This document shows, piece after piece, positions 861 to 9,760 of a stretch of 40,235 nt of DNA. Position numbers and translations under genes: made by a program. The stretch's first letter is position 1. Each line of letters opens with the position of its first letter. The stretch covers positions 23,434-63,668 of the forward strand of contig NZ_JAPYPS010000020.1 in NCBI RefSeq assembly GCF_029937575.1. The letters are read 5' to 3'. Origin of the DNA: Nocardioides sp. GTDB lineage: Bacteria > Actinomycetota > Actinomycetes > Propionibacteriales > Nocardioidaceae. The notes under the pieces were generated by a model. That model searched no databases. It was not told the DNA's origin and worked only from the letters and a program-made list of their open reading frames with translations.

Positions 861-1991
861 ATGGTGCGCGTGTGGCGGCGGACTCATCTCGGCACGGAAG
901 CCGACCGCGCGACCTTCCGGACGCTGCACCGGGCGTCCCAGGCGGCCCCCGCGCTGCGCGAGGGACTGACCCGCGACAGCGCCGAGCGGTCGGTCAAGCA
1001 CCTGCGCGCACTCCTCGGCACGTCGGCGCTGGCGATCACCGACACCGCGGGGTGCCTGGCCTGGGACGGATCCGGCGCCCACCACCGCGCGCAGATGAGC
1101 ACTCTCGTGGCCGCGACGCTGGCGCGCGGACGCACGCGCAGCATCGACCGCGGCGACCTGCGGTGCGACGAGGCGGGCTGCCCGGTGCGCACCGCCGTGG
1201 TGAGCCCACTGGTCGTCGACGAGCGCATCGTCGGCACCCTCGCGGCCTTCGCCGCGACCCCGACGGCGGGTCTGGCTCGCGCGACCGAGGAGGTGGCGAC
1301 GTGGGTCTCGGGCCAGCTCGACTTCGCCGAGCTCGAGTCGTCGCGGGCCCGCCTGGCCGAGGCCGAGCTGCGGGCACTGCGCGCCCAGATCAGCCCCCAC
1401 TTCATCTACAACTCCCTCGGCGCGATCGCCAGCTTCGTGCGTACCGACCCCGACCGGGCCCGCGAGCTGCTGCTGGAGTTCGCCGACTTCACCCGCTACT
1501 CCTTCCGGCGCCACGGCGAGTTCACGACCCTGGCCGAGGAGCTGCGCTCCGTCGAGCGCTACCTCCTGCTCGAGCAGGCGCGCTTCGGCGACCGTCTGCT
1601 CGTGACCCTCAGCGTCGCGCCCGAGGTGCTGCCGGTCGCGATCCCGTTCCTCTGCGTGCAGCCGCTGGTGGAGAACGCCGTGCAGCACGGCCTCGCTCGC
1701 AGCGAGGGCCCCGGCCGGATCACCATCACCGCCTACGACCGGGGCCAGGACTGCGTCATCGAGGTCGAGGACGACGGCGCCGGCGAGGAGCCCGAGCGGG
1801 TGCGGCTCGCGCTCGCCGGGGACACCACCCCCGGCTCGGTCGGGCTCGGCTCGGTCGGGCTGGGCAACGTCGACGCACGGTTGCGGGCGACGTACGGCGA
1901 CGACTACGGGCTCGTCGTCGAGACCGCGCCCGGCGCCGGGACCAAGGTCGTCGTCCGGGCTCCGAAGTTCGCGGCTGGGGTGAGCGCGTGA
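861..1991 (+). CDS. LytS/BtsS-type sensor histidine kinase lacking membrane segments
   Basis: This 376-residue kinase belongs to the His_kinase (PF06580)/HATPase family that pairs with LytTR regulators. The H-box is RAQISPHFIYNSLG with phospho-acceptor His180, the N-box is PLVENAVQHG with Asn272, and the glycine box GLGNVDARL lies near residues 333-341. Residues about 40-160 look like a GAF-type sensory domain and hold a Cys-x4-Cys pair (Cys102, Cys107). Unlike E. coli BtsS, YpdA or LytS, no N-terminal transmembrane array is visible, so it probably senses a cytoplasmic signal. The ATG at 861 is the first start after the divergent promoter region. Its stop overlaps the GTG start of the response regulator. 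The operon with a symporter suggests control of carboxylate uptake; the ligand is unknown. Confidence 0.9.
   Translation: MVRVWRRTHLGTEADRATFRTLHRASQAAPALREGLTRDSAERSVKHLRALLGTSALAITDTAGCLAWDGSGAHHRAQMSTLVAATLARGRTRSIDRGDLRCDEAGCPVRTAVVSPLVVDERIVGTLAAFAATPTAGLARATEEVATWVSGQLDFAELESSRARLAEAELRALRAQISPHFIYNSLGAIASFVRTDPDRARELLLEFADFTRYSFRRHGEFTTLAEELRSVERYLLLEQARFGDRLLVTLSVAPEVLPVAIPFLCVQPLVENAVQHGLARSEGPGRITITAYDRGQDCVIEVEDDGAGEEPERVRLALAGDTTPGSVGLGSVGLGNVDARLRATYGDDYGLVVETAPGAGTKVVVRAPKFAAGVSA
1833..1862 (+). repeat. 15-bp tandem duplication inside the kinase glycine box
   Basis: Two adjacent 15-base units, ggctcggtcgggctc and ggctcggtcgggctg, encode GSVGL twice immediately before GNVDARL. 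The copies differ only in the last base, so this is a recent in-frame duplication that lengthens the glycine-rich ATP-lid segment by five residues. Confidence 0.85.
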
Positions 1992-2818
1992 CGCCGGCGT
2001 CGGGCAACGGCCTGCGGGTGCTCGTCGTCGACGACGAACGCCCCTCCCTCGACGAGCTCGCCTTCCTGCTGAGCGCCGACGAGCGGGTCGTCGACGTCGT
2101 CAGCTGCGACTCGGCCACCGAGGGCCTGCGCGTGCTGCGCACCGACGAGGTCGACTGTGTCTTCCTCGACATCCAGATGCCGGGCCTGACCGGGCTCGAG
2201 CTCGCCGACGTCCTGAGGCGCTTCCGCGAGCCGCCGCCGATCGTGTTCGTCACCGCCCACGACGAGCACGCGGTCGAGGCCTTCGACCTGCGCGCGGTCG
2301 ACTACGTCCTCAAGCCGGTGCGCCGCGAACGCCTCGCCGAGGCCGTACGGCGCGTGGTCGACGCGCGCCACCTGGCGCCCGGGCGCGTCGGCGCCCCCGC
2401 GCCCGCCGCCGCATCCACCGCCGCGTCCACGGGCGCGGGAGCCGACGGTGCCCACGACCTGCAGATCCCCGTCGAGCTCGGCGGGGTCACCCGCTTCGTC
2501 GAGCGCTCGACGGTGACCCACGTCGAGGCGCACGGCGACTACGCGCGGCTGCACACGCCGTCCGGCTCCCACCTGATCCGGGTGCCGCTCTCGACGCTGG
2601 AGGAGGAGTGGCGTGCGGCCGGCTTCCTGCGCATCCACCGCTCCTGCCTGGTCGCGATCGCGCACATCAGTGAGGTCCGGATGGACTCCGGACGCTGCAG
2701 CGTGGTGGTCGGACGGCGCGACTCCGGCGGGGCGGGGAGCGGACCGGTCGAGCTGTCGGTCAGCCGTCGCAACACCCGCGAGCTGCGCGAGCGCCTGGTC
2801 AAGCGGGGCGACTCGTGA
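1988..2818 (+). CDS. LytTR-family response regulator
   Basis: This 276-residue regulator starts with a receiver domain (VLVVDDERPS; phospho-acceptor Asp61 in FLDIQMPG; conserved Lys109 in YVLKPV). An Ala/Pro-rich linker covers roughly residues 130-155, and a LytTR DNA-binding domain runs from about residue 160 to the end (FVERSTVTHVEAHGDYARLH, FLRIHRSCLVAIAHI). The GTG start overlaps the kinase TGA as GTGA, indicating translational coupling. LytTR proteins bind pairs of short direct repeats about 21 bp apart; such a pair is present upstream of the second symporter operon at 5364-5391. A role as its transcriptional activator is an inference from that site and from the BtsR/YpdB paradigm. Confidence 0.93.
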   Translation: MTPASGNGLRVLVVDDERPSLDELAFLLSADERVVDVVSCDSATEGLRVLRTDEVDCVFLDIQMPGLTGLELADVLRRFREPPPIVFVTAHDEHAVEAFDLRAVDYVLKPVRRERLAEAVRRVVDARHLAPGRVGAPAPAAASTAASTGAGADGAHDLQIPVELGGVTRFVERSTVTHVEAHGDYARLHTPSGSHLIRVPLSTLEEEWRAAGFLRIHRSCLVAIAHISEVRMDSGRCSVVVGRRDSGGAGSGPVELSVSRRNTRELRERLVKRGDS

Positions 2819-3249
2819 CCGAGCGGGTGCGCGTCACCGGACCGGACCGTCGCTCCCGGCCCTTGGCGCGCACCCATGACATCGACGAGGAGACGTCGCT
2901 CGGCAGCGTCTACGTGCGCTCGCTGATGCGCGCCCAGCTCTCCCTGGCCCTCGGCGTCGTCGCCGTCCTCGCGGTCACCATCGGCGCCCTGCCGCTGCTC
3001 TTCCACCTCGTGCCCGAGGTCGGCAACGCCCAGGTCGCCGGCCTGCCGATCGCCTGGCTGGTCCTCGGGGTGCTCGTCTATCCCTGGCTGCTGCTGCTCG
3101 GCTGGGCCTACGTCCAGCGCGCCGAGCGCAACGAGCAGCACTTCACCGAGCTGCTCGGGCCGCACGAGTCCCGCCCCGAGACCGCAGGCCCAGCAGGCCC
3201 GGCAGGCCCAGCGGGGCCGACGGGGTCGACGGGGCCGACGGGGCCGTGA
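2815..3249 (+). CDS. DUF485-like small membrane protein, symporter partner
   Basis: This 144-residue protein has two hydrophobic segments, about residues 45-65 and 80-100, followed by a charged cytoplasmic stretch (YVQRAERNEQHFTELLG). That topology resembles the DUF485/YjcH proteins encoded next to ActP-type acetate symporters. The GTG start overlaps the regulator stop, and its own stop overlaps the symporter start, both as GTGA. The last 20 or so residues are a collagen-like Gly-Pro-x tail (PAGPAGPAGPTGSTGPTGP) encoded by GC-rich short repeats, probably arisen by slippage. A role as accessory subunit or assembly factor of the symporter is inferred from position only. Confidence 0.8.
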   Translation: MTERVRVTGPDRRSRPLARTHDIDEETSLGSVYVRSLMRAQLSLALGVVAVLAVTIGALPLLFHLVPEVGNAQVAGLPIAWLVLGVLVYPWLLLLGWAYVQRAERNEQHFTELLGPHESRPETAGPAGPAGPAGPTGSTGPTGP

Positions 3250-4763
3250 GCGACCTCACCGCCCTGCCCGGGCTGATCGCGGTCATCCTCGTCTCGCTGC
3301 TGACCCTGCTCGTCGGCACGTGGGGCATGCGGGTCTCGCGCACCACCAGCGATTTCCTCGTCGCCTCGCGCACCGTGCGTCCCACGCTCAACGCCTTCGC
3401 GGTCAGCGGCGAGTACCTCTCGGCCGCCTCCTTCCTCGGCATCGCCGGGCTGCTGCTCGCCTACGGCGCCGACATGCTCTGGTACCCCGTCGGCTGGACG
3501 GCCGGCTACCTGCTGCTCCTCGTGCTCGTGGCCGCGCCGCTGCGCCGCTCCGGCGCCTACACGCTGCCCGACTTCGCCGAGGCGCGGCTCGAGTCCCGCA
3601 CGGTCCGCAGCATCTGCTCGGTCTTCGTGGTCGCGATCGGGTGGCTCTACCTGCTGCCGCAGTTCGAGGGCGCCGGCTTCACCCTGGCCACCGCCCTCGG
3701 GGCCCCGCGCTGGGTCGGGCCGGTCGCCGTCGGACTGGTCGTGCTGATCGGCGTGGGTGGCGGTGGGATGCGGTCGATCACCCTGGTGCAGGCCTTCCAG
3801 TACTGGCTCAAGCTCACCGCCCTGCTCGTCCCCGCGGCCGTCCTGCTGGTCGTGTGGACCCGCGACGAGACCGCGGGGTCGCTGGGCGCCGGTGATCCGT
3901 CGTGGTCGATGCCGCTCGTCGGCAGCGGCGGCGCGGGCCTGTACACGACGTACTCGTTGATCCTGGCGACGTTCCTCGGCACCATGGGACTGCCGCACGT
4001 GGTGGTGCGCTTCTACACCAACCCCGACGGCGGAGCGGCACGCCGTACGACGCTCACCGTGCTGGCCCTGGTGGGCGGCTTCTACCTGATCCCGCCGGTG
4101 TACGCCGCCCTCGGGCACGCCTACGGGGTCGGGTCGGGCGACTCCTCGACGCTGATGCTCGACCTGCCGCGCCTCGCGCTCGACGGGCTCGGCGGCGAGC
4201 TGCTCACCGGGCTGATCACCGCGGGTGCGTTCGCGGCGTTCCTCTCGACGTCGTCGGGCCTGGTGATCGCCGTCGCCGGCGTGCTGTCGCAGGACGTCAC
4301 CTCGCGGCGGCTCCCCGAGATCGCCTCCTTCCGCGTCGCCGCCGCCATCGCGGTGCTGATCCCGATGGGAGCGTCGTTGGCACTGCCCAACTTCGGCGTC
4401 GCCCAGTCCGTCGGGCTCGCCTTCGCCGTCGCCGCCTCGACGTTCTGCCCGTTGCTGCTGCTCGGCATCTGGTGGCGCGGACTGACGCCGACCGGGGCGA
4501 TCGCCGGGATGCTCACCGGCGGCGCCGGCTCGGTCGTCGCGGTCGGCTGGACCCTGTCGCACGGCGCGCTCGACGGCGTCACCGACGGGTGGGCCGACGT
4601 GCTCCTCGGCCAGCCGGCCGCCTGGAGCGTGCCGCTCGCCTTCGCCACGATGATCCTGGTCTCGCGGGCCACCGCGTCCAGCACCCCGAGGCACGCGAAC
4701 CGCTTCCTGGCGAGGCTGCACGCGCCGGAGTCCCTCGACCTCGAGCGGTCGGGAGAGCGGTGA
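3246..4763 (+). CDS. Sodium:solute symporter (SSS), cation/acetate-type
   Basis: This 505-residue polytopic membrane protein of the SSS family (SLC5, LeuT fold) has about 13 transmembrane segments. Family features include TTSDFLVASRTV near residue 35, SGEYLSAASFLGIAG near residues 55-70, YTLPDFAEAR, and the GTMGLPHVVVRFYTNPD segment shared with acetate/pyruvate permeases. The GTG start overlaps the upstream stop as GTGA, so it is the fourth gene of a tightly coupled kinase-regulator-small protein-symporter operon. Likely substrates are short monocarboxylates such as acetate, propionate or pyruvate, taken up with Na+ or H+. The exact substrate cannot be read from the sequence. Confidence 0.9.
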   Translation: MSDLTALPGLIAVILVSLLTLLVGTWGMRVSRTTSDFLVASRTVRPTLNAFAVSGEYLSAASFLGIAGLLLAYGADMLWYPVGWTAGYLLLLVLVAAPLRRSGAYTLPDFAEARLESRTVRSICSVFVVAIGWLYLLPQFEGAGFTLATALGAPRWVGPVAVGLVVLIGVGGGGMRSITLVQAFQYWLKLTALLVPAAVLLVVWTRDETAGSLGAGDPSWSMPLVGSGGAGLYTTYSLILATFLGTMGLPHVVVRFYTNPDGGAARRTTLTVLALVGGFYLIPPVYAALGHAYGVGSGDSSTLMLDLPRLALDGLGGELLTGLITAGAFAAFLSTSSGLVIAVAGVLSQDVTSRRLPEIASFRVAAAIAVLIPMGASLALPNFGVAQSVGLAFAVAASTFCPLLLLGIWWRGLTPTGAIAGMLTGGAGSVVAVGWTLSHGALDGVTDGWADVLLGQPAAWSVPLAFATMILVSRATASSTPRHANRFLARLHAPESLDLERSGER

Positions 4764-4835
4764 TGTTACTGACCGCTGTGACTACTACCTGACCCTTACA
4801 ACCGCTGGGCAGTAGTCACAGCGGTCAGTAACATC
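4762..4835. terminator. Perfect 25-bp inverted repeat between convergent genes
   Basis: Arms at 4762-4786 and 4811-4835 are exact reverse complements over 25 bases, with a 24-base loop. The repeat begins inside the symporter stop codon and ends 9 bases before the stop of the convergent gene, so it is placed as a bidirectional terminator. The arms are only about 48 percent G+C, far below the surrounding DNA. The loop carries a second ACCGCTG (4801-4807) that can pair instead with CAGCGGT in the right arm (4819-4825), giving an alternative smaller hairpin. Confidence 0.7.
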
Positions 4836-4844
4836 CCTCAGATC

Positions 4845-5291
4845 TCAGGCCGCCGACACCCGCAGCATCCGCACCCCCGCGACGCAGGCAAGCACGCCAC
4901 CACCGACGACGAAGACCAGGCCGACGCCCGGCTGCCAGCCGCCGAAGCCGATCAGCTGGACAACGTGCACGACCTGCCAGGCCACCAGGCCGAGGGCGAT
5001 CGCGCCGAAGACCAGGGCGTGCCCGGCGGCCACGCGCAGGCGGCCGGTGCCGGAGATGATGGCGCCGGCGATGCCGACCCAGGCGGCGTAGAAGGTCCAC
5101 AGACCGGCCCCGACGATGCCGGACACGGCCCCGAGGGCGGTGTCGACCCACGGCATGAAGGAGCCGAGGACGACGAGCAGCGACGCGCAGGCGAGGGCCT
5201 TGCGGCCCGGGACGGCAACGCGGGTACGGCGCGCGGTCGCGGCCTTCGAGCCGGCAGCGGTGGTGGCGGGGGCGGGTGTCGTGGTGGCCAT
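4845..5291 (-). CDS. Small four-helix membrane protein of unknown function
   Basis: This 148-residue protein has an Ala/Thr-rich basic N-terminus (MATTTPAPATTAAG, then RRTRVAVPGRK) and four hydrophobic segments spanning about residues 33-50, 60-80, 85-105 and 115-140. I do not recognise a named family. It is convergent with the first symporter and divergent from the second symporter operon. Its start lies about 75-100 bp downstream, on its own strand, of the pair of ACCGCTCG boxes at 5364-5391, so it may share LytTR control with the transporter genes. The ATG at 5291 is the only start that leaves a membrane protein with a normal short N-terminus. Confidence 0.75.
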   Translation of the reverse strand: MATTTPAPATTAAGSKAATARRTRVAVPGRKALACASLLVVLGSFMPWVDTALGAVSGIVGAGLWTFYAAWVGIAGAIISGTGRLRVAAGHALVFGAIALGLVAWQVVHVVQLIGFGGWQPGVGLVFVVGGGVLACVAGVRMLRVSAA

Positions 5292-5336: not shown

Positions 5337-5476
5337 ACCGCTCGGCCGGCCGCCCGCCACGACGAGCGGTAGGTCAGCCGCGACGAGCGGTCGCCGTACC
5401 GCTCCGAACGTCAGGACAGACGTCGTCTCCCCCGTCCTGGCGCCGCTGAGCGCGACGACCCCACCGCTCACCGCTT
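5337..5476. promoter_or_regulatory. Cluster of six ACCGCT[C/T] boxes, candidate LytTR operator
   Basis: ACCGCTC or ACCGCTT occurs at 5337-5343, 5398-5404, 5463-5469 and 5470-5476 on the plus strand, and at 5364-5370 and 5385-5391 on the minus strand. Read on the minus strand, the last two form ACCGCTCG-N13-ACCGCTCG. E. coli BtsR (YehT) recognises ACC[G/A]CT[C/T]A repeated with a 13-bp spacer. The copy at 5463-5470 is ACCGCTCA, an exact match to that consensus. The remainder of the 293-bp gap (5292-5584) holds the Crp-type site at 5479-5494 and the ribosome binding site at 5573-5577; I see nothing else in it. Confidence 0.6.
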
Positions 5477-5478
5477 CG

Positions 5479-5494
5479 AGTGACCGGGGTCACA
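5479..5494. promoter_or_regulatory. Crp/GlxR-type palindrome upstream of the DUF4212-symporter operon
   Basis: The sequence agtgaccggggtcaca fits TGTGA-N6-TCACA at all but the first base, and GTG-N6-GNCAC exactly. It begins three bases after the last ACCGCT box and lies about 90 bp upstream of the ATG at 5585. A clear -10 hexamer could not be placed, so activation versus repression is open. Confidence 0.6.
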
Positions 5495-5584
5495 TCTACC
5501 CCTTGTGACCCGTCCCCGCGGGGCGGTTGTCTGCGGCCATCGCACACCCGTCCTGCCCTCTCCCACCTGACTGGAGGCACACCC

Positions 5585-5896
5585 ATGGATGACCAACAGC
5601 GCCAGGAGTACTGGCGCAAGAACCTCCGGCTCCTCGCCGTGCTGCTGTCGATCTGGGCCCTGGTGTCCTTCGGCGCCGGCATCATCTTCGTCGAGCCGCT
5701 CAACAAGATCGAGATCGGTGGGTTCCCGCTGGGCTTCTGGTTCAGCCAGCAGGGCTCGATCATCACGTTCGTCGCGCTGATCGCCTACTACGTGTGGCGG
5801 ATGGACAAGCTCGACGACGAGTACGGCGTCGACGAGCTCGACAGCGCCTCGGCCAACACGACCGGTCACCCGGGCCCGGCAGGGGGCGGTCACTGA
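5585..5896 (+). CDS. DUF4212 family sodium:solute symporter small subunit
   Basis: This 103-residue protein matches the pattern of the putative solute:sodium symporter small subunit family (DUF4212, TIGR03647). It has YWRKNLRLLAVLLSIWALVS near residue 9, FGAGIIFVEPLNKI, then GFPLGFWFSQQGSI and YYVWRMDKLDDEYGVDE. Two transmembrane helices are evident, about residues 15-37 and 50-75. GGAGG at 5573-5577 sits seven bases before the ATG, which fixes the start. Its TGA overlaps the next ATG as TGATG. Members of this family are encoded directly before VC_2705-type symporters, exactly as here. The C-terminal tail is short and Gly/His-rich. Confidence 0.92.
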   Translation: MDDQQRQEYWRKNLRLLAVLLSIWALVSFGAGIIFVEPLNKIEIGGFPLGFWFSQQGSIITFVALIAYYVWRMDKLDDEYGVDELDSASANTTGHPGPAGGGH

Positions 5897-7575
5897 TGAG
5901 CGACATCCAGCTCTGGACGCTGATCTTCGCGATCATCACGTTCAGCGTCTACATCTACATCGCCTACGCCAGCCGGGTCTCCGACACGGCCGGCTTCTAC
6001 ATCGCCGGCGGCGGCATCCCGGCTCCCGCCAACGGCGCGGCCATCGCAGCCGACTGGATGAGCGCGGCGTCGTTCATCTCCCTGGCCGGCATCGTCGGCC
6101 TCTCCTACAACGGGTACGCCGGCGGCGTGTTCCTGATGGGGTGGACCGGCGGCTACGTCCTGCTCGCGCTGCTCCTGGCGCCGTACCTGCGCAAGTTCGG
6201 CAAGTACACGCTGCCCGACTTCGTCGGCGACCGGTACTCCGAGACCGCCCGCCTCGTGGCCGTCCTGGCCGCCATCGTGGTCTCGTTCGTCTACGTCGCC
6301 GGACAGATGGCCGGCGTCGGGCTGGTCTTCACGCGCTTCCTCAACGTCAACACCACCACCGGCGTGATCATCGGCATGACGATCGTCTTCTTCTACGCCG
6401 TGCTCGGTGGGATGAAGGGCATCACCTGGACCCAGGTGGCGCAGTACTCCGTGCTGATCATCGCCTACCTCATCCCGGCGGTCGCGGTCTCCGCGAAGGT
6501 CACCGGCATCCCGCTCCCGCAGATCGGCTTCGGCCGGATCCTGGAGGAGCTCAACGGGCTGCAAGCCGACTTCGGGCTCGCCGAGTACTCCGGCGCCTTC
6601 ACCCAGATCAGCATGCCCAACATGATCCTGATCACCGCCGCCCTGATGTTCGGTACGGCGGGCCTGCCGCACGTGATCGTGCGCTTCTACACGGCCAAGA
6701 GCGTGCGCGCAGCGCGCTACTCGGCGCTGTGGGCGATCTTCTTCATCGCGATCCTCTACACGACGGCGCCGTCGGTCGCGGCCTTCACCAAGCTGCAGAT
6801 CATCAAGGACCTGACCGCGACGTCGCTGGCCGACGTACCGGGGTGGTTCAACACGTGGTCCGACGTCGGACTGATCACCACCTCCGGTGGCGGCCCGGTC
6901 AGCGACCTCGGGACGAGCACGTTCAGCTACTCCGACGTGATGATCAACAACGACATCATCGTCCTGGCCAGCCCCGAGATCGGCGGGCTGCCGGCTCCGA
7001 TCGTCGGACTGGTCGCAGCCGGGGCCCTCGCCGCCGCGCTGTCGACCGCCTCCGGCCTGCTGCTGGTGATCTCGTCCTCGGTCGCCAACGACGTCTACTA
7101 CAAGCGGATCAACCCCGCCGCCACCGAGGCCAAGCAGCTGCTGGTCGGACGGTGCGCGATGGCCGCGGCGATCGTGGTCGCCGGCTACCTCGGCATCAAC
7201 CCTCCCGGATTCGTGGCGCAGGTGGTCGCCTTGGCCTTCGGGCTCGCAGCGGCCAGCTTCTTCCCGATACTGGTGCTCGGCATCTTCTGGAAGAAGGCCA
7301 CCGCTGCGGGCGCAGCCGCCGGCATGATCACCGGCCTCACGGTGACGATGGCCTACATGATCTGGACGATCGACATCTACGGGAACTCCGACGGGCTCTG
7401 GAACATCCCGGAGACCGGTTTCGGGACGATCGGGATGCTGATCAACTTCGCGGTCACGATCGTGGTCTCCCAGTTCACCAAGAAGCCCTCGCCGCAGATG
7501 CAGGAGCTGGTCGAGGAGATCCGCTACCCCGGGCGCACCCAGCTCGTCGCCGCCCACCAGGACGGCGAGGTGTAG
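5896..7575 (+). CDS. VC_2705-type sodium:solute symporter (cation/acetate type)
   Basis: This 559-residue polytopic SSS transporter shows YASRVSDTAGFYIAGG near residue 25, ADWMSAASFISLAGIVG near residue 55, KYTLPDFVGDRYS near residue 108 and GTAGLPHVIVRFYTAK near residue 253. These are typical of the VC_2705 subfamily that works with a DUF4212 small subunit. It is only moderately similar to the first symporter, which lacks the hydrophilic insert near residues 320-350, so the two are distinct types rather than a recent duplication. Acs follows behind a strong terminator, which supports acetate or a related monocarboxylate as substrate. The start overlaps the small-subunit stop. Confidence 0.92.
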   Translation: MSDIQLWTLIFAIITFSVYIYIAYASRVSDTAGFYIAGGGIPAPANGAAIAADWMSAASFISLAGIVGLSYNGYAGGVFLMGWTGGYVLLALLLAPYLRKFGKYTLPDFVGDRYSETARLVAVLAAIVVSFVYVAGQMAGVGLVFTRFLNVNTTTGVIIGMTIVFFYAVLGGMKGITWTQVAQYSVLIIAYLIPAVAVSAKVTGIPLPQIGFGRILEELNGLQADFGLAEYSGAFTQISMPNMILITAALMFGTAGLPHVIVRFYTAKSVRAARYSALWAIFFIAILYTTAPSVAAFTKLQIIKDLTATSLADVPGWFNTWSDVGLITTSGGGPVSDLGTSTFSYSDVMINNDIIVLASPEIGGLPAPIVGLVAAGALAAALSTASGLLLVISSSVANDVYYKRINPAATEAKQLLVGRCAMAAAIVVAGYLGINPPGFVAQVVALAFGLAAASFFPILVLGIFWKKATAAGAAAGMITGLTVTMAYMIWTIDIYGNSDGLWNIPETGFGTIGMLINFAVTIVVSQFTKKPSPQMQELVEEIRYPGRTQLVAAHQDGEV

Positions 7576-7603: not shown

Positions 7604-7640
7604 CCACGTGCCCCGGCGAGGACCTCGCCGGGGCACGTGG
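7604..7640 (+). terminator. Strong GC-rich terminator after the second symporter
   Basis: Arms of 17 bases at 7604-7620 and 7624-7640 are perfectly complementary around a 3-base loop, 28 bases past the symporter stop. No T-tract follows. The hairpin should separate the symporter operon from acs and imply a dedicated acs promoter. Confidence 0.85.
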
Positions 7641-7647
7641 CAGCACC

Positions 7648-7683
7648 GGACAACCAGCGGGACAACCAGCGGGACAACCAGCG
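7648..7683 (+). repeat. Three 12-bp tandem repeats downstream of the terminator
   Basis: The unit ggacaaccagcg is repeated three times without a change, and a partial fourth copy follows (ggcaacc). It lies between the terminator and the acs promoter. Perfect copies point to a young slippage array; no function is evident. Confidence 0.8.
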
Positions 7684-7718
7684 GGCAACCCACACACGCC
7701 ACGATGAGCCCACCGTCC

Positions 7719-7771: not shown

Positions 7772-9760
<1,989 letters not shown>

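Follow-up and report, generated by a model that had tools for sequence, protein, structure and literature searches.

The BtsS/BtsR-btsT system of Escherichia coli combines a LytS/LytTR pair, whose regulator contains receiver and LytTR domains, with a monocarboxylate importer of the CstA family. The sensor BtsS carries a seven-helix pyruvate receptor, the pyruvate-binding residues being located in its membrane helices, and expression of btsT also needs CRP (passages of PMC10653868). The btsT promoter reads ACCGCTTA-N13-ACCACTCA in the oligonucleotide table of PMC4847170, and we located this string in E. coli K-12 sequence. LytTR sites are described as direct repeats of 9-11 nt with gaps of 11-13 nt (PMC4847170) or of 9 bp with gaps of 10-13 (PMC11347149); for other LytTR regulators, from several phyla, the predicted sites read ACC[GA]CTTA or nearly so and are interrupted by 12-13 bp (PMC6193735). 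LytTR regulatory systems (LRS), Actinobacteria included, have predicted ACCGCTTAG repeats with gaps of 12-13 bp and are described as possessing a membrane inhibitor but lacking a kinase (PMC6193735). In E. coli, the YpdA/YpdB (PyrS/PyrR) pair, likewise of the LytS/LytTR type, governs the OFA-type MFS gene yhjX, and the reported YpdB site is GGCATTTCAT. The CrbS/CrbR (MxtR/ErdR) acetate switch is described as a two-component system that controls acs and whose sensor kinase is fused, through STAC, to an SLC5-type symporter domain. For a system of the kind described below, a search of an open-access library, which lacks most subscription journals, found no actinomycete study. In Streptomyces coelicolor, SCO1217 is listed as an orphan kinase and SCO1220 as an orphan LytTR regulator (table of PMC9739842), and an ArgR probe on SCO1220-SCO1221 reportedly gave an unclear shift or none (PMC3293853).

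The locus described here lies in a 40,235-bp stretch of Nocardioides sp. DNA with a G+C content of 71%, hereafter the window (Table 1). Four plus-strand genes overlapping end to end encode a LytS-type kinase, a LytTR regulator, a DUF485-like protein and a first symporter, SSSa. The second group begins with DUF4212 and a VC_2705-family symporter, SSSb, for which both subunit models (TIGR03647 and TIGR03648) scored above cut-off, and is followed by the acetate-CoA ligase gene, acs. A small membrane protein is encoded divergently and adjoins DUF4212 in the window and in four genus relatives (tblastn, L005-L008). Neither a sigma-70-type promoter nor an intrinsic terminator was called between positions 4700 and 5620. 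The two operons are separated by a hairpin at 4762-4835 with 28-nt arms, 96% complementary and not called as a terminator; this hairpin recurs in L034, a close relative, where other genes follow it and the DUF4212 block is missing.

A first-pass annotation, made from the letters of the window, had pointed to six ACCGCT(C/T) boxes within 140 bp upstream of DUF4212. A word search found all six, at 5337(+), 5364(-), 5385(-), 5398(+), 5463(+) and 5470(+). Over the 40-kb window, ACCGCTY occurs 18 times against 17.07 expected from dinucleotide shuffles; the word is thus not generally enriched, and the cluster is local. The expectation per 140 bp is 0.059 (about 0.05 in the first-pass annotation), and the probability of at least six boxes is 5.8e-11 for one fixed place, uncorrected for scanning. 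Two of the boxes belong to a longer repeat unit, ACCGYTCGTCG, whose same-direction copies start 21 bp apart; with Y at position 5, this unit became apparent only from the promoters of relatives. On the minus strand, two copies form a perfect pair of 11-nt repeats with a gap of 10 nt and a period of 21 bp. The N13-spaced pair reported earlier, ACCGCTCG-N13-ACCGCTCG, occupies 5363-5391 and is nested in this longer pair, while the accompanying ACCGCTCA lies at 5463. The original observation of a box array is correct, even understated. Its interpretation as a BtsR-like operator needs amending: the site is probably of the LytTR type, but what repeats, every 21 bp, is ACCGYTCGTCG, and just two of the six boxes fall in the perfect pair.

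The perfect pair agrees with the LytTR rule of two direct repeats of 9-11 nt placed 10-13 nt apart. When it is compared with two copies of ACC[AG]CT[CT]A at a 13-bp gap (BtsR consensus letters as given in the first-pass annotation, checked on the btsT promoter only), the gap and the first seven bases fit, so that the asserted spacing is right and the core agrees, while position eight in the perfect pair is G, not A. The core is not a mark of BtsR, a similar one being present in other predicted LytTR sites of several phyla (PMC6193735). As annotated, the LytS/LytTR genes lie 2.5 kb upstream, 2545 bp separating the perfect pair from the LytTR match. A tandem repeat overlaps the degenerate proximal pair and is followed by a dyad, which by resemblance we take to be CRP/GlxR-like. 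The Nesterenkonia locus L103 contains, by eye, a similar CRP/GlxR-like dyad.

Table 1. Genes and predicted regulatory features around the box array (positions in the window)
Feature	Position	Strand	Remarks
LytS-type histidine kinase	864-1991	+	Pfam PF06580 (His_kinase), PF02518 (HATPase)
LytTR response regulator	1988-2818	+	receiver PF00072 and DNA-binding PF04397
DUF485-like small membrane protein	2815-3249	+	PF04341 21.8 bits, under the 28-bit cut-off
First sodium:solute symporter, SSSa	3246-4763	+	PF00474
Divergent small membrane protein	4845-5291	-	no Pfam family
Single ACCGCTC box	5337-5343	+	outside any conserved pair
Perfect operator pair (predicted), ACCGCTCGTCG-N10-ACCGCTCGTCG	5360-5391	-	half-sites 5381-5391 and 5360-5370; 0 mismatches
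Single ACCGCTC box	5398-5404	+	opposite strand abuts the weak third box
Weak possible third box	5402-5412	-	keeps the 21-bp phase of the pair; GACGTTCGGAG...ACCGCTCGTCG is a 4-mismatch pair
Degenerate proximal pair facing DUF4212	5442-5473	+	6 mismatches in the window
Tandem ACCGCTCACCGCTT	5463-5476	+	first copy within the second half-site of the degenerate pair
Dyad AGTGACCGGGGTCACAT	5479-5495	+	similar in 5 genus DUF4212 loci (alignment)
DUF4212 small symporter subunit	5585-5896	+	PF13937; TIGR03647 above cut-off
VC_2705-family sodium/solute symporter, SSSb	5896-7575	+	TIGR03648 720.7 bits, cut-off 320.75
Acetate-CoA ligase (acs)	7772-9760	+	TIGR02188 947.1 bits, cut-off 724.95; 196 bp downstream of SSSb

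The locus shares with BtsS/BtsR-btsT the LytS/LytTR pair, the receiver and LytTR domains of the regulator, the ACC[AG]CT[CT] core with its 13-bp gap, a (here predicted) monocarboxylate importer as target, and a CRP-like dyad recalling the CRP requirement of btsT. The LytTR protein is 32% identical to BtsR and finds its best family match in the BtsR family NF008677, although at 133.2 bits against a cut-off of 246. The differences concern the operator, which here extends to ACCGYTCGTCG; the sensor, since LytS has no seven-helix receptor; and the predicted targets, which are SSS, MFS and SatP carriers and acs (in the window a VC_2705-family SSS) instead of the CstA-family BtsT. Because receptor, family cut-off and target type all diverge, the predicted system is BtsSR-like, not BtsSR; what survives of the circuit proposed in the first-pass annotation is a putative LytTR-type operator, tied to the local LytS/LytTR pair, at a predicted carboxylate-symporter promoter. 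The YpdA/YpdB system is similar in that its target is an MFS, YhjX, with which the predicted MFS target in the Nocardioides relative L212 shares 27% identity; the YpdB site is unlike ACCGYTCGTCG. Relative to CrbS/CrbR, SSSa and the soluble kinase are encoded by separate genes of one cluster and the regulator is of the LytTR type. Unlike the LRS regulators, the present one contains a receiver and is partnered by a LytS kinase, and the repeat is ACCGYTCGTCG.

Hydropathy analysis predicted no N-terminal membrane helices in LytS, and a Pfam scan of the protein gave no 5TMR-LYT match. LytS aligns only to residues 223-556 of E. coli BtsS (31% identity), and its N-terminus shows a weak GAF match (PF01590, 21.1 bits, under the 22.4 cut-off). 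Lacking the seven-helix pyruvate receptor, the kinase cannot sense as BtsS does, which raises the question of how a LytS kinase perceives a signal without the LytS membrane receptor. Among 70 loci (L034-L103), 66 have DUF485 and SSSa after LytTR and 68 have LytS nearby; the incomplete loci are L044, L076 and L103, with contig ends nearby, L102, without a DUF485 match, and L100, with none of the three. Since LytS is predicted to lack N-terminal membrane helices and SSSa is usually co-encoded, the DUF485/SSSa symporter is a candidate membrane input to LytS, as in the fused CrbS. The signal might alternatively enter through the GAF-like part.

Close relatives of the DUF4212 symporter (75-90% identity) were found in four of 36 same-genus genomes. 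All four promoters align with that of the window over two 11-base CGACGARCGGT blocks, 21 bp apart (G007 has three, 22 and 21 bp apart), followed by a degenerate pair in the opposite direction and a TGTGACC...CACA-like dyad. The degenerate pair has two mismatches in G013 and G016, four in G020 and six in G007; six or fewer, the level of the window's pair, were reached in 32 of 2000 mononucleotide shuffles. The ACCGYTCGTCG pair also precedes a DUF485-MctC-type symporter in other relatives. Second-symporter promoters were compared in 49 of 58 genomes (all but G004, G006, G023, G024, G027, G040, G045, G050 and G053). Every one of the 39 LytTR-positive genomes examined, our own included, had a pair with at most four mismatches (0, 1, 2, 3 and 4 mismatches in 6, 17, 10, 5 and 1 genomes, respectively), located 443-649 bp before the symporter match in 38 genomes and 980 bp before it in G031. 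The first half-sites are invariant in all 39 at positions 2-3 (CC), 6 (T) and 10-11 (CG), and have C in 19 and T in 20 at position 5. LytTR-negative promoters had six or seven mismatches in nine of ten cases, the level seen at other spacings; the exception is G016, an 87% complete genome in which a perfect pair occurs without any LytTR match. Conservation in relatives, on which the first-pass annotation had staked its reading, was thus observed. The consensus was chosen from the five DUF4212 promoters and from L016, L017, L020, L021, L027 and L065, which are therefore not independent tests. G007 has a second symporter copy, L192, which was left out of the count and shows no pair within two mismatches. 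The short word was rejected as the conserved unit near the relatives' lytTR genes, ACCGCTC pairs at 21 bp occurring in two of 45 sequences, the window included.

Could the boxes reflect chance, base composition or remnants of coding repeats? The window is rich in G+C, overlapping open frames cross the gap, and CGCTCGTCG words recur within lytTR genes at spacings of 18 and 45. These two spacings, high in an initial count, were discarded as operator spacings because the examples inspected fall inside lytTR coding sequence. Against such an origin, the 4.35-Mb genome contains one perfect pair where 1e-5 is expected from base composition, and in the five-genome alignment both 11-mers rank, along with the proximal boxes and the dyad, among the upstream blocks that are conserved best. 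Near the promoters, moreover, the unit is enriched at a spacing of 21 bp alone (36 strand sets, with three or fewer at any other distance up to 60). We consider this explanation extremely improbable; at the level of sequence it is already refuted.

The genome encodes exactly one detectable LytTR-domain protein, the one of the window. LytTR proteins were found in 41 of the 58 genomes, our own included, 40 of them having one and G041 two; 17 had none. Searches with relaxed patterns were less discriminating: our genome yielded four more pairs at three mismatches against seven places for a reversed control, and at two mismatches there were 71 places against 50 in the 58 genomes and 24 against 37 in 17 Streptomyces genomes. 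As the two-mismatch pattern is not clearly above the reversed control genome-wide, weak sites count by their location alone. An independent test was provided by 196 genomes of the class, at least 90% complete, searched at one mismatch or less with the pattern fixed beforehand. A LytTR relative (E <=1e-30) was present in 108. The pair occurred in 42 of these and in two of the 88 LytTR-negative genomes (Fisher p 6e-11, which overstates independence as the genomes are related), while the reversed pattern was found in nine and five, respectively (p 0.58, same related genomes); total places numbered 45 and 15. At this stringency 66 of the 108 LytTR-positive genomes had no pair. By genus, LytTR was present in 40 of the 81 sampled and the site in 19. 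Twenty-seven of the 45 sites lie within 15 kb of the LytTR gene. Thus, as judged from these genomes, the pair recurs before predicted uptake genes in many LytTR-positive actinomycetes and in almost no LytTR-negative ones. At L268, L270, L271 and L276, a protein 32-33% identical to part of LytTR is encoded about 1.3 kb or less from the operator site.

Another transcription factor might bind the repeats, the proximity of LytTR being a coincidence of linkage. G016 is consistent with this, as is G093, a LytTR-negative genome with a one-mismatch pair before acs (L263), which is either a real exception or an assembly gap. The sites follow the LytTR gene across the 81-genus sample, however, including the 16 of 43 sites in LytTR-positive genomes that lie on a different contig or at a distance above 15 kb. 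In Streptomyces, the site precedes a lactate-type MFS gene elsewhere in the genome, and direct repeats of about 9-11 bp with a period of about 21 are the geometry of LytTR sites. A different binding protein therefore appears improbable. We favour the view that the tandem repeat is very probably the operator of the LytTR protein encoded 2.5 kb upstream, which would activate DUF4212/symporter-acs and the divergent gene upon exposure to a monocarboxylate such as acetate or pyruvate. The comparisons themselves establish that the pair exists, that it is unique in the genome, that it co-occurs with LytTR and that, in Actinomycetes, it stands in front of predicted monocarboxylate transporters from several families.

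Genes downstream of the predicted operator were inspected at 30 of the 45 class-wide sites. They comprised 20 DUF485-MctC (tblastn), one MctP, two acs (one of them in LytTR-negative G093), three MHS-type MFS (two of the three scanned, both slightly under the model cut-off) and one AgcS carrier; L261, L275 and L280 had no obvious target. Seventeen additional regions from the genus contributed three lactate-type MFS, seven DUF3311-MctP (family models were run on one; the names of the other six rest on likeness), two acyl-CoA ligases, one region with MctC and acs sites and one SatP, with no obvious target at L207, L211 and L221. L211 and L207 have perfect pairs; one is located between the convergent ends of heme-synthesis-like genes, the other near a phosphodiesterase-like gene. 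Streptomyces genomes were reached via their LytTR loci, 17 of 20 being searched, and in 11 of the 17 a pair with 0-2 mismatches stands shortly before a lactate-type MFS gene. Because whole-genome counts in Streptomyces do not exceed the control, it is this shared location that carries the evidence. The products are 56-59% identical to the lactate-type MFS of L212, whose own model score of 313.9 is just below the cut-off of 320. In our own genome, a three-mismatch pair on contig C117 (L123 4545-4576) lies 30-57 bp, depending on the start codon, before an acyl-CoA ligase gene, and like genes in G013 and G002 have one- and two-mismatch pairs 80-90 bp before their starts. A symporter gene on contig C22 of our genome had no pair within four mismatches in the surrounding 8 kb, and a search run without a positive control found no homologue of the lactate-type MFS in our genome. 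As classified here, the targets are mostly predicted monocarboxylate importers (MctC, MctP, VC_2705, SatP, lactate-type MFS) or acetate-CoA ligase. MctC, MctP and the VC_2705 symporter belong to the SSS superfamily, to which SatP and MFS are unrelated; the occurrence of one operator before importers of like chemistry from three superfamilies suggests that the signal is a monocarboxylate.

The orientation of the pair differs between loci. In the window and the four DUF4212 relatives, the perfect pair points away from the symporter and toward the divergent membrane protein, whose start codon is about 68 bp distant in the window; in the 35 other LytTR-positive promoters, it points toward the transporter. 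In all five DUF4212 loci, a weaker pair also occurs that faces DUF4212. Two readings are conceivable: a single activator site acts on both genes, or the membrane protein is the principal target at these loci. The latter would mean that the symporter is controlled mostly through the CRP-like site and other factors, which fits the direction of the pair in all five loci, G016 included, and the weakness of the symporter-facing pair in the window and G007. That pair is nevertheless good in G013 and G016, MctC-type loci have the same motif before symporters yet no membrane protein detectable by tblastn, and one activator site can serve divergent promoters. On balance, we think it unlikely that the membrane protein is the principal target. 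In the reading that we favour, phosphorylated LytTR dimers would occupy both half-sites, which would lie on the same side of the DNA at a distance of some two helical turns, and control would be positive. The CRP-like site next to the proximal boxes may add control by carbon status, as CRP does at btsT, and acs could be expressed by read-through.

Streptomyces loci have the order LytTR-DUF485-SSSa-LytS on one strand. Together with the locus numbers, this arrangement suggests that SCO1217 and SCO1220 are partners, orthologous to the pair described here. Tentatively, one can go further and imagine an ancient monocarboxylate regulon of actinomycetes, built on a single operator and a single LytTR protein, where a receptor-less BtsS-like kinase reads its substrate via a separate DUF485/SSS symporter (a split transporter-sensor), targets (MctC, MctP, VC_2705, SatP, lactate MFS) have been swapped repeatedly and SCO1217/SCO1220 are this very system; we hold this broader picture to be possible but doubtful. 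One promoter array leads to a testable carbon-uptake regulon across an industrially important class, with a defined DNA address (ACCGYTCGTCG, period 21) and, in 40 of the 41 positive genomes, a single LytTR regulator; the shared chemistry of the predicted targets suggests which class of ligand is likely. Two further observations were made in the window. The gap before the acetate-CoA ligase gene contains about three head-to-tail copies of GGGACAACCAGC (7640-7690). A CbiX-like gene, named by likeness, lies beside LytS at 51-737, and at many Nocardioides loci a relative of it is located no more than 10 kb from lytTR.
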